Below are positions 14,685 to 21,069 of a stretch of 53,246 bases of DNA, piece after piece. This DNA comes from Gammaproteobacteria bacterium (lineage in GTDB: Bacteria; Pseudomonadota; Gammaproteobacteria; Steroidobacterales; Woeseiaceae). The stretch lies in the NCBI GenBank assembly GCA_029881015.1, contig JAOUNK010000002.1, positions 1 to 53,246 on the forward strand. The letters run 5' to 3'. The notes under the pieces were generated by a model. It was not told where the DNA came from. It worked only from the letters and a program-made list of their open reading frames with translations, and did not search any database. A program made the translations under genes and the position numbers. The number at the start of each line of letters is the position of its first letter. The first letter of the stretch is position 1.

Positions 14685-15977
14685 CTAGCGTAGCGACAAT
14701 TTCAGAACGATGGGTCCGGAAAGCCCGTCCGGCAGCCGGTTTTCGGCATCGAAGCGGTTCCAGTGGCTGTTGGCCACGAAATAAAAGTCATCGCCGACGA
14801 CGACACCGAGAGTCGGCTCATCGAACTGGGGCAGGTTCGCTGCGAGTGTCCGCCCCGCCTCTATGCGGTGACCGTCGTCGCTGAGCCGCAGCGCAGCGAC
14901 GCGATGCGGCCGAATGCCGTTCTGAATCGCGATCAACTCGTTGTTGTAGCGGTACAGGCCGTCGATCCCGTAGTCGCTGAGCGAGTCCGGAACCCCGAGC
15001 TTCACCCTCGAGCCGTCCGCCAGCGAAATGCGCGACAGGCCGCCGATGTAATCCGCGACATACAGGAAGCCCCCGGACTCATCGAGCACCAGTCCCTGGG
15101 GTGAACCGAGTGCGCCCGGGGCAAGAATCGCCGTGAAGGTGCCGGTATCGATGTCGAAGGCGTAGACCGCCCCCGAGAGGCTGTCTGTCGTATATATCGT
15201 GTCGCCGTTGATGACGAGATCACCCAGGAGCTGCGCCTCGGCCAGTGGCGGCAGGACGGCGGCAACGGTGACCTCACCCGTCTGCGCATCGACACGGAAC
15301 AGCCCGGTCTTGCCTTTATCTTCTCCGACATCGGCCAATTGTGCGATGGCGGCGCTGGCAAACCAGAGCCCGCCGTCAGCGTGGAACCGCATGCCGAAGA
15401 CGCTCCAGTGCCCGGCGCGATCACTGACAACCTGCGGCTCGTCGGCAACTCGAACCAGCCGGCCCGTATGAATGCTGCCGAGGTAAGCGGACCCGTCAGG
15501 GGCCAATGCAATGCCCTCCGGTACAAAGCGATCCATCTCCAGCCGGACGGCAATCTCCGCCTGGCCAACGGGCTCGTACAGGTCTTCGACACGCTTTTGA
15601 AAGCTGTCCCAGTCCGGTAACTCGCGCAATGCGGCAAACTCGTCCATCCCGCCAACACCGAAGTCTATGCCGCGCTCCAGTAGCCGGTTGAGCGTCGCGA
15701 GCGATGCCGTTGCATCGCCGCGCAGTGCTTCCGCCAGCGCCAGGTTAAATAATGCACCGGGATAGCCCGGCCGTGCGTCCAGTGATTTCCCTGCCGCGGC
15801 AAGCATGGCGTCAAAGTCCTGCGCCTGGTAAGCCGCAACAAGCTCCGCCCTGGCGTCAGCGTAGTCATCGGCGTGCGTACCCGCTGCGGCCAGCAGGGCC
15901 GCAAGAAAACCCAGGCTGGACCACCTGGAATGAAGATTCGTCACTCGCGCGCGCCTCTTGTTCCGACCTGGCGCCAT
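14685..15977 (-). CDS. secreted SMP-30/NHL-like beta-propeller protein with N-terminal TPR-like helices
   Basis: Signal SRWSSLGFLAALLAAAGTHADD; repeats FVPEGIALAPDGSAYLGSIHTGRLVRV..., SPQGLVLDESGGFLYVADYIGGLSRI. Possible GTG start at 15944 just before the signal peptide. Confidence 0.78.
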   Translation of the reverse strand: MAPGRNKRRARVTNLHSRWSSLGFLAALLAAAGTHADDYADARAELVAAYQAQDFDAMLAAAGKSLDARPGYPGALFNLALAEALRGDATASLATLNRLLERGIDFGVGGMDEFAALRELPDWDSFQKRVEDLYEPVGQAEIAVRLEMDRFVPEGIALAPDGSAYLGSIHTGRLVRVADEPQVVSDRAGHWSVFGMRFHADGGLWFASAAIAQLADVGEDKGKTGLFRVDAQTGEVTVAAVLPPLAEAQLLGDLVINGDTIYTTDSLSGAVYAFDIDTGTFTAILAPGALGSPQGLVLDESGGFLYVADYIGGLSRISLADGSRVKLGVPDSLSDYGIDGLYRYNNELIAIQNGIRPHRVAALRLSDDGHRIEAGRTLAANLPQFDEPTLGVVVGDDFYFVANSHWNRFDAENRLPDGLSGPIVLKLSLR

Positions 15978-16080
15978 GATACAGCACGTCCCCGTTGCAG
16001 AGCGTGCATTGCGCGTTGGCCGATCCGGGCATATGCTCGGCACGACGATGCGGCGAAAACCGATAATCAGGAGCCGAGCA

Positions 16081-17334
16081 ATGCGATCCGACCTCACAGC
16101 CGTCATTCTTGCGGCCAGTCTCGCGCTCACGAGTCCGATTCTTCTTGCCGATGACTGCGTTGACTGTCACCGGGATGAAACGCCGAATGTCGTCAACGAC
16201 TGGCAGATCAGCAGGCACCACACAGAGAATGTCGATTGCCGCGATTGCCACAAGGGACGGCACGCATCCGCCGACGATGTGGACAAGCTCAGGACGGTAA
16301 CGGCCCAGACCTGTGCAAAGTGTCATGAAGAACGCTTTGAGCAATTCTCGAAAGGCAAGCACGCGCTGGCCTGGGCCGCTGTCGAAGCCATGCCGACAAC
16401 GCATGCCTTGCCGATCGCGTTGTCGCACGGCATGAAAGGCTGTGGCGGCTGCCATAAGCTGGGCCTCAAGGACGAAGAAACCGTCGCACAACTCAAGGCC
16501 GAAGGCAGCATGTTCGGCCACGCATCCTGCGATGCCTGCCATACGCGGCACACGTTCTCCGTCGTCGAGGCCCAGCAGCCACAGGCCTGTCAGACCTGCC
16601 ACATGGGCTTCGATCATCCACAGTGGGAAATGTGGTCTTCATCGAAGCACGGCGTGCGTTACCTCCTTGCCCAGAACGGCACGCTGCCGGCCAATACACC
16701 GGCACCGACCTGCCAGGACTGCCACATGGTCGATGGCGACCACGAGGTCCGCACCGCCTGGGGTTTCCTCGCCGTACGCCTGCCGTTAGCCGACGACGAG
16801 CAATGGGCCGCCGACCAGGTCACTATTCTGCAGGCACTGGGTGTCCTCGATCCGGACGGCGACCCAACGCCACGGCTCGATGTCGTCAAGGCCGCCGATG
16901 TTGCCCGGCTGACGCAGGAAGATTTCGACCGCGAACGCAACAAGATGATCGCGGTTTGCGAGGACTGTCATTCGAAGAATTTCGCCCTCGGCGAACTCGC
17001 GAAAGCGGATGACCTGATTCGCGAAGCGGACCATCTGCTCGCCGCGGCCATTCGTGAAATTGCGTCACTGTACGAAGACGGGATACTCGAGCAACCCGAG
17101 GGATACGCTCGACCGTTCCCGGACCTGCTGACATTCCACGACGCACCGACATCGATCGAGCAGACCCTGTTCGAGATGCACCTGAAGCATCGTATGCGCG
17201 CGTTCCAGGGTGCGTTCCACGCCAACCCGGACTACGCGCTGTGGTACGGCTGGAGCGAGATGGTCCGCGACCTGCAGAGCATCAGGGAACAAGCACAGGA
17301 ACTGCGGCGCCACGCCGAGCACCACCCGGAATAG
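16081..17334 (+). CDS. octaheme c-type cytochrome, hydroxylamine oxidoreductase (HAO)-like family
   Basis: Signal peptide plus eight CxxCH motifs (CVDCH, CRDCH, CAKCH, CGGCH, CDACH, CQTCH, CQDCH, CEDCH); blocks like CDACHTRHTFSVVEAQQPQACQTCHMGFDHPQWEMWSSSKHG and C-terminal FHANPDYALWYGWSEM match the HAO family layout. Confidence 0.88.
   Translation: MRSDLTAVILAASLALTSPILLADDCVDCHRDETPNVVNDWQISRHHTENVDCRDCHKGRHASADDVDKLRTVTAQTCAKCHEERFEQFSKGKHALAWAAVEAMPTTHALPIALSHGMKGCGGCHKLGLKDEETVAQLKAEGSMFGHASCDACHTRHTFSVVEAQQPQACQTCHMGFDHPQWEMWSSSKHGVRYLLAQNGTLPANTPAPTCQDCHMVDGDHEVRTAWGFLAVRLPLADDEQWAADQVTILQALGVLDPDGDPTPRLDVVKAADVARLTQEDFDRERNKMIAVCEDCHSKNFALGELAKADDLIREADHLLAAAIREIASLYEDGILEQPEGYARPFPDLLTFHDAPTSIEQTLFEMHLKHRMRAFQGAFHANPDYALWYGWSEMVRDLQSIREQAQELRRHAEHHPE

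Positions 17335-17355: not shown

Positions 17356-21069
<3,714 letters not shown>

Follow-up and report, generated by a model that had tools for sequence, protein, structure and literature searches.

A Stand-Alone Octaheme HAO-Like Cytochrome c without the P460 Cross-Link Tyrosine in a Woeseiaceae Gammaproteobacterium

Octaheme Gene and Flanking Genes

The window, i.e., the whole stretch of 53,246 nucleotides that was analysed, carries a gene for an HAO-like octaheme cytochrome c between two oppositely directed neighbours (Table 1). The gene is a single open frame, and the CxxCH motifs start at C26, C53, C78, C121, C150, C170, C211, and C293. The first-pass annotation had described a signal peptide and eight CxxCH motifs in about 417 aa, which agreed with the translation; the signal peptide was judged by eye, and the protein is apparently secreted by the Sec-type route. 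The pattern of eight motifs is far beyond chance, because all eight are kept by 85 family members (one row is gapped at heme 1).

Table 1. Positions of the octaheme gene, its motifs, and its neighbours in the window.
Feature	Position	Strand	Evidence
Protein with SMP-30/gluconolactonase-like region, divergent neighbour	14688..15971	-	PF08450, 4.7e-6
AGGAG, likely ribosome-binding site of octaheme gene	16069..16073	+	read directly; 7 nt before ATG at 16081
Octaheme HAO-like cytochrome c gene, 417 aa	16081..17334	+	translation; PF13447, 3e-24; PDB HAO family; predicted fold
Signal peptide, residues 1-23	16081..16149	+	probable cleavage after ...ILLA, by eye; N-terminal helix in model
Heme 1 motif CVDCH (26-30)	16156..16170	+	84/84 rows having letters there
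Heme 2 motif CRDCH (53-57)	16237..16251	+	85/85 family members
Heme 3 motif CAKCH (78-82)	16312..16326	+	85/85 family members
Heme 4 motif CGGCH (121-125)	16441..16455	+	catalytic by HAO homology; profile-aligned with AOB-type HAO heme 4 motif
Heme 5 motif CDACH (150-154)	16528..16542	+	85/85 family members
Heme 6 motif CQTCH (170-174)	16588..16602	+	85/85 family members
Asp178-His179, counterpart of HAO active-site pair (FDHPQWE / VDHNNWE)	16612..16617	+	85/85; aligned
Heme 7 motif CQDCH (211-215)	16711..16725	+	85/85 family members
Heme 8 motif CEDCH (293-297)	16957..16971	+	85/85 family members
Key-site segment Y385-A-L-W-Y-G-W391	17233..17253	+	Leu387 (17239-17241) in column of HAO P460 cross-link Tyr467; phmmer, MAFFT, hhalign
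MetH-like methionine synthase, convergent neighbour	17356..21069	-	named from its sequence; only marks the site

Upstream of the gene, neither a sigma-70-like site nor an FNR/DNR-type box was found, and the sequence there is poorly conserved among relatives. Across the window, FNR/DNR-type box matches were at about chance level, i.e., 51 against 42 expected.

The SMP-30-like neighbour also adjoins the octaheme gene in two other loci (L048 and L049). It is not conserved in other phyla and is not thought to be a partner of the octaheme protein. In six further genomes of the genus, the octaheme gene likewise adjoins the MetH-like gene; in genome G021, the octaheme copy is located elsewhere. A TetR regulator was also found among the flanks.

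Family Assignment

The octaheme protein matched Pfam PF13447 at 3e-24 (86.2 bits, cut-off 21.9), which places it among the HAO-like octahemes. In the PDB search, the matches were 6h5l (1.8e-29), 4n4j (5e-24), 6t5e, 1fgj (5e-22), and 6hif, all of the HAO family. The solved relatives found by sequence were Kustc0458 (6h5l), Kuenenia and Brocadia HAO/HOX, N. europaea HAO, and hydrazine dehydrogenase. A profile of 13 diverse octahemes matched Kustc0458 at 1.9e-78 and IhOCC at 1.6e-65. The AlphaFold model had a mean pLDDT of 84.5 and a pTM of 0.82. In fold search with this model, ten chains were matched below E = 0.001, all of the HAO family, the best being Kustc0458 (TM 0.69) followed by N. europaea HAO (TM 0.66). 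The octaheme protein thus belongs to the HAO family by sequence, profile, and predicted fold, as the first-pass annotation had proposed.

In the ONR/OTR group, the catalytic heme sits in a CxxCK motif. Membership in this group was ruled out, since all eight motifs of the window protein are CxxCH, the best ONR hit in the PDB sequence search was not significant (E = 0.11), and in fold search NrfA and ONR appeared only at E 0.07 and above, with ONR at E>=0.2. Canonical HAO was ruled out by the residue at the key column (Leu387) and by the tree, in which the protein stands in a separate clade. Placements in either group, by tree or by alignment, were looked for and not found, and the position outside both groups given by the first-pass annotation was kept.

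The marks of a reductive HAO-like protein of the HAOr type, i.e., HAO family, no cross-link tyrosine, and the Asp-His pair, are all present. An adjoining partner cytochrome of the Kustc0457 type is not, as no heme ORF lies beside the window gene.

Cross-Link Tyrosine Column

In canonical P460 enzymes, i.e., HAO, HDH, and HOX, the tyrosine that corresponds to N. europaea Tyr467 is cross-linked to heme 4 of the adjoining subunit. The Tyr467 segment of N. europaea HAO reads H-V-N-P-G-G-W-T-Y-T-E-G-W, and the segment of the window protein, H-A-N-P-D-Y-A-L-W-Y-G-W, is one residue shorter. Tyr467 was placed opposite Leu387 by phmmer, MAFFT, and profile-profile hhalign, all in agreement; in the last, a profile of 17 family members was aligned with a profile of seven AOB-type HAOs (E = 1.4e-49). 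Shifting the one-residue gap gives a single alternative opposite Tyr467, i.e., Trp388. Kuenenia HOX, a cross-linked enzyme, aligns poorly around the key column, so the gap placement there is not certain. The first-pass annotation had reported the cross-link tyrosine as missing, which stands, and had put its place on a gap or Trp, which is corrected to Leu387 by the three alignment methods. A tyrosine of NPDYALWYGW at the cross-link position was checked by profile alignment and not found. By these sequence alignments, the window protein is without a counterpart of Tyr467 and lies outside the canonical P460 HAO/HDH/HOX type.

Among the 85 family members, the key column holds Leu in 78, Phe in three, Trp in two, Asn in one, Met in one, and Tyr in none. 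Trp388-Tyr389, next to Leu387, is invariant in the family, and Tyr385 and Tyr389, each two residues from the key column, are kept in 85/85. As a control, the AOB-type loci (L059, L066, L072-L074, L013, and L014) keep Tyr in this column in the MAFFT alignment. In the other Tyr-less octahemes sampled, the residue is mostly His, with Trp in the L022 group and in Kustc0458, Gln in a few, and others. The prevalence of His agrees with the 'key site' of PMC12758564. Leu in place of His at the key site is distinctive of the window protein and its clade.

Conserved Residues and Architecture

Asp178-His179 and His46, 94, 108, 157, 190, 221, 370, and 380 are invariant in the 85 members, and His61 is kept in 84/85. 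His46, 61, 94, 108, 157, 190, and 221 would be enough as seven distal ligands, with heme 4 left open.

The heme order is that of HAO, in line with the first-pass annotation, but the spacing, which it had also called HAO-like, is not kept between hemes 4 and 5, where the CxxCH starts are 29 residues apart against 10 in N. europaea HAO. This linker is also longer in IhOCC. Compared with N. europaea HAO, the window protein is also without about 70 N-terminal residues and without a segment between hemes 1 and 2.

Phylogeny and Distribution

In a tree of 88 octahemes, the window protein was placed in a clade of its own, split from AOB HAO by supported branches. Its clade mates come from Woeseiaceae-like genomes, Ferrimonas, Shewanella, Zixibacteria, Calditrichota, Gemmatimonadota, Acidobacteriota, Nitrospirota, and others. 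The sister group consists of four gammaproteobacterial genomes (L018-L021, 43-45% identical). With full support, N. europaea HAO is grouped apart, together with seven AOB-type HAOs. Paralogs often tied to pentaheme genes, and IhOCC, lie elsewhere behind supported branches; the PDB rows of this tree come from alignments in which X fills the missing parts, and four rows are long-branched, so their exact places are unsure.

At least 524 relatives were found in one scan, and the best 80 of these, from many phyla, showed 64-87% identity; the Calditrichota relatives are about 67-70% identical. Named strains in this set include Ferrimonas sediminum (L091) and Shewanella gelidii (L092) at 73-75% identity, and the nearest relatives with names point to a Woeseiaceae/Chromatiales host. 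The rarity implied by the first-pass annotation is therefore not borne out, the more so as Tyr-less HAO-like proteins have been published (PMC12758564, PMC8940962, and PMC9213671). They were reported as the dominant HAO-like forms in a microbial mat (PMC8940962), and HAO-family proteins were found in 65 phyla, with mostly unknown function and, in one group, a suggested sulfur role (PMC9213671). What the present analysis adds is the Leu-Trp-Tyr motif at the key site, together with the sets of N-oxide genes around the gene in distant relatives.

In several Gammaproteobacteria (G646, G400, G381, G639, and others), more than one PF13447-type octaheme paralog was observed, of different clades and some with adjacent tetraheme or pentaheme genes. 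In a plasmid search, three distant octahemes of 26-29% identity were hits, i.e., NZ_AP021877.1, NZ_CP090010.1, and NC_006569.1. The hosts of these plasmid-borne HAO-like genes are Desulfosarcina, Desulfobaculum, and Ruegeria pomeroyi.

Gene Neighbourhoods in Relatives

A dedicated partner gene was sought in the window, in loci from the genus, and across 80 named loci, and no conserved one was found. The first-pass annotation had seen no partner gene nearby, and indeed no heme protein is encoded beside the window gene. Of the 46 loci longer than 15 kb, 33 were without any other heme ORF; another heme ORF within 1.5 kb was found in 11 of the 80 loci, and no neighbour was generally conserved across these 80. 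Since most loci are without another heme ORF and none is conserved, coding as a stand-alone gene is a trait of the family.

In about a dozen distant genomes, the octaheme gene lies near nosZD, nrfAH, NapH-like, Rrf2, DUF438-hemerythrin, and DUF2249 genes. N-oxide genes were found near the octaheme gene neither in most of the 80 named loci nor in the window. The fullest run was read in a Calditrichota locus (L113), in the order Rrf2, octaheme, NapH-like ferredoxin, DUF438/hemerythrin, DUF1858/DUF2249, methyltransferase, cytochrome c, and a heme-copper oxidase of the NorB/CcoN kind. Versions of this set were found in Actinomycetota (L163), Bacteroidota (L123, L142, and L146), and Ignavibacteriales (L128). 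L142 adds nrfA (PF02335, 475 bits) and an nrfH over its cut-off. In L128 (2206-11236), the octaheme gene stands behind nosZ (TIGR04246, 963 bits) and nosD, and two ORFs after nosZ-nosD have the size of NosF and NosY. An assumed density of 3-8 Rrf2 genes per 4 Mb predicts about 1-2.5 in 1.24 Mb, and 12 were counted. DUF2249 proteins were reported to be induced under denitrification in a haloarchaeon (PMC11218638).

As a separate observation, the Bacteroidota locus L142 (3150-11795) combines in a single run nrfA-nrfH, Rrf2, NapH-like, ferredoxin, and methyltransferase genes with two different octaheme genes.

Host Genome and Genus

The host genome is 94.6% complete, and the octaheme gene is the only PF13447 gene found in it. 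It carries a candidate cd1-type nitrite reductase (PF02239, 495 bits). Genome-wide, no NrfA, no Hcp, no NapA over cut-off, and no full NapC/NrfH were detected. The NosZ propeller model matched no control genome either, so absence of NosZ from the host is not to be read from it. Another contig (C246) encodes a membrane protein that weakly matches NrfH/NapC and is truncated where the contig ends. The search for partner cytochromes, which the first-pass annotation had named as a check, thus gave this weak NapC/NrfH-like protein, which may conceivably act as electron donor to the octaheme protein.

The same contig (C246 of G000, locus L179, 1-9824) encodes 5-heme, diheme c4-like, 19-heme, and 11-heme proteins, a transporter-like membrane protein, and the NapC/NrfH-like cytochrome. 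This group of genes looks like an electron-transfer cluster.

In the genus, the octaheme gene is patchy, with nine intact copies and one truncated among the genomes sampled. No pattern linked it genus-wide with NirS, NapA, Hcp, or NapC. The cd1-type gene was present in 6/9 genomes with an intact octaheme gene against 15/21 without an intact copy. Among the genus members tested, NapA was over the cut-off only in G096, where the octaheme copy is truncated only. This remnant (L060, 8392-8748, minus strand) has 119 aa and three hemes and shares a contig with napA and a strong NapC-family gene.

Comparison with Known Octahemes

Kustc0458, the HAOr of Kuenenia stuttgartiensis (6h5l), was the top match in both sequence and fold, and it shares the eight hemes, the missing cross-link tyrosine, and the Asp-His pair. 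However, identity in the fold alignment is about 24%, the Kustc0458 key column is Trp, and its heme 4-heme 5 linker is short. Kustc0458 also has a redox partner, Kustc0457 (PMC12485887), whereas the window gene stands alone.

By description, epsilon-HAO of Campylobacterota and Cabys_2556 of C. abyssi (PMC5317091) are likewise Tyr-less HAO-like octahemes, reported or proposed as nitrite reductases. Cabys_2556 adjoins nap genes; the window gene does not. Also by description, BOGUAY_0691, the Beggiatoaceae orange octaheme, is a nitrite-reducing octaheme of sulfur-oxidising Gammaproteobacteria, and homologs were reported in Shewanella (PMC6449678).

IhOCC of Ignicoccus hospitalis (4qo5) resembles the window protein in the short N-terminus, the longer heme 4-heme 5 linker, and a key column without tyrosine. 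It differs in its place elsewhere in the tree, on a long branch, and in an identity of about 20% in the fold alignment. N. europaea HAO (1fgj, 4fas, and 6m0p) shares with the window protein the fold, the eight-heme order, the Asp-His pair, and the H-x-N-P and G-W anchors that surround the key site. Unlike it, the window protein lacks a counterpart of Tyr467, the N-terminal segment of about 70 residues, and a hao cluster, and it belongs to a separate clade.

Proposed Function

The window protein is best explained as a soluble periplasmic octaheme of the reductive HAO-like (HAOr/epsilon-HAO) type, i.e., a nitrite, NO, or hydroxylamine reductase that would be fed by the periplasmic cytochrome pool. 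A probability of roughly 0.6 is given to this reading. Eight hemes c would be bound, seven of them probably bis-His, with heme 4 five-coordinate below Asp178-His179. In the oligomer, the adjoining subunit would bring Leu387, flanked by Trp388-Tyr389, to heme 4. Because Leu387 takes the place of the cross-linking Tyr, heme 4 would remain a plain heme c instead of becoming P460, and the reductive direction is expected, i.e., electrons would be pushed into a nitrogen oxide rather than taken from hydroxylamine. The most likely substrate would be nitrite, converted to NO as by HAOr or to hydroxylamine/ammonium as reported for epsilon-HAO; NO or hydroxylamine itself may also be used. The donor is probably the general periplasmic cytochrome pool, because no dedicated redox partner is encoded beside the gene.

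Nitrite/hydroxylamine reductase activity is plausible from HAOr, from epsilon-HAO, and from the N-oxide neighbourhoods in distant relatives. Kustc0458, without the cross-link, is tied to the conversion of nitrite to NO (PMC12485887). The Tyr-less epsilon-Hao of Caldithrix abyssi, next to nap genes, was put forward as the nitrite reductase of this organism (PMC5317091). HAO-like proteins of bacteria outside anammox are mostly inferred to be reductive (PMC12758564). Some points do not favour the reductive reading. Nothing in the host's own neighbourhood of the gene supports it, the octaheme gene is without N-oxide genes nearby in most of the 80 named loci, and it shows no link with NirS in the genus. 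The cd1-type nitrite reductase candidate puts the need for a second one in doubt, and the Leu of the clade differs from the His described in reductive HAOs (PMC12758564). A search for experiments on any protein known to be of this clade gave none.

A more specific version of the reductive reading, overlapping with it, is a detoxifying reductase of NO or hydroxylamine that does not serve nitrite respiration. The recurring neighbours in part of the family, i.e., Rrf2, DUF438-hemerythrin (distantly YtfE-like), and hemerythrin, resemble a nitrosative-stress set. However, two of those loci hold the respiratory genes nosZ or nrfA, and for the Rrf2 proteins the match to IscR models is no worse than that to NsrR. 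This version is possible but doubtful.

It is also conceivable, though unlikely, that the clade represents a separate functional type, marked at the key site by Leu with the invariant Trp-Tyr beside it, in place of the Tyr of oxidative or the His usual in reductive enzymes. Its substrate might then be new to the HAO family, e.g., free NO or a sulfur species, or Tyr389 or Tyr385 might contact or be bonded to heme 4.

Reduction (or oxidation) of sulfur compounds, e.g., sulfite, polysulfide, or tetrathionate, which has been suggested for the HAO-family proteins of Tharpellota, is somewhat less likely still. Many organisms outside nitrogen cycling carry HAO-family proteins, and for clade I members a sulfur role has been put forward (PMC9213671). 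In G360 (L053, 8452-11796), an octaheme gene 68% identical to that of the window is followed by a diheme cytochrome c gene and a gene for a flavoprotein resembling sulfide dehydrogenase. However, this is the only locus with sulfur genes among those read, whereas N-oxide neighbours recur in several phyla, and significant similarity to OTR/ONR was found neither by sequence nor by fold.

An oxidative enzyme, acting on hydroxylamine or hydrazine and perhaps with a non-canonical cross-link of Tyr385 or Tyr389 to heme 4, is improbable. The two tyrosines, invariant and close on either side of the key column, would be at hand for such a bond. The gap placement is also uncertain against Kuenenia HOX, which is cross-linked according to PMC12758564, and the Beggiatoaceae orange protein was reported to oxidise hydroxylamine and hydrazine besides reducing nitrite (PMC6449678). 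However, in the profile alignment a match of Tyr467 to Tyr389 or Tyr385 costs extra gaps, and no hao-type cluster with partner cytochromes adjoins the gene. A non-enzymatic electron carrier or storage cytochrome, e.g., in extracellular electron transfer, has a similarly slim chance. In its favour are the eight hemes packed into one small protein, the multiheme cluster L179 on another host contig, and relatives in the known metal reducers Shewanella and Ferrimonas. Against it, the Asp-His active-site pair, which a pure wire would not need, is kept in 85/85 members, and the octaheme gene is not near that cluster.

Implications for the HAO Family

In nature, the P460 tyrosine is missing from most HAO-family proteins, and no function has been assigned to them. 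The clade of the window protein is compact and highly conserved (64-87% identity across phyla in the best 80 of at least 524 relatives), is usually coded by a single stand-alone gene, and is present in named Shewanella and Ferrimonas strains. It would therefore be a convenient test of whether nitrite reduction really follows from the loss of the cross-link. If the protein does reduce nitrite or NO, surveys that count NirS, NirK, and NrfA would overlook a widespread N-oxide enzyme, and the label 'hydroxylamine dehydrogenase' would misread the gene as a nitrification gene.
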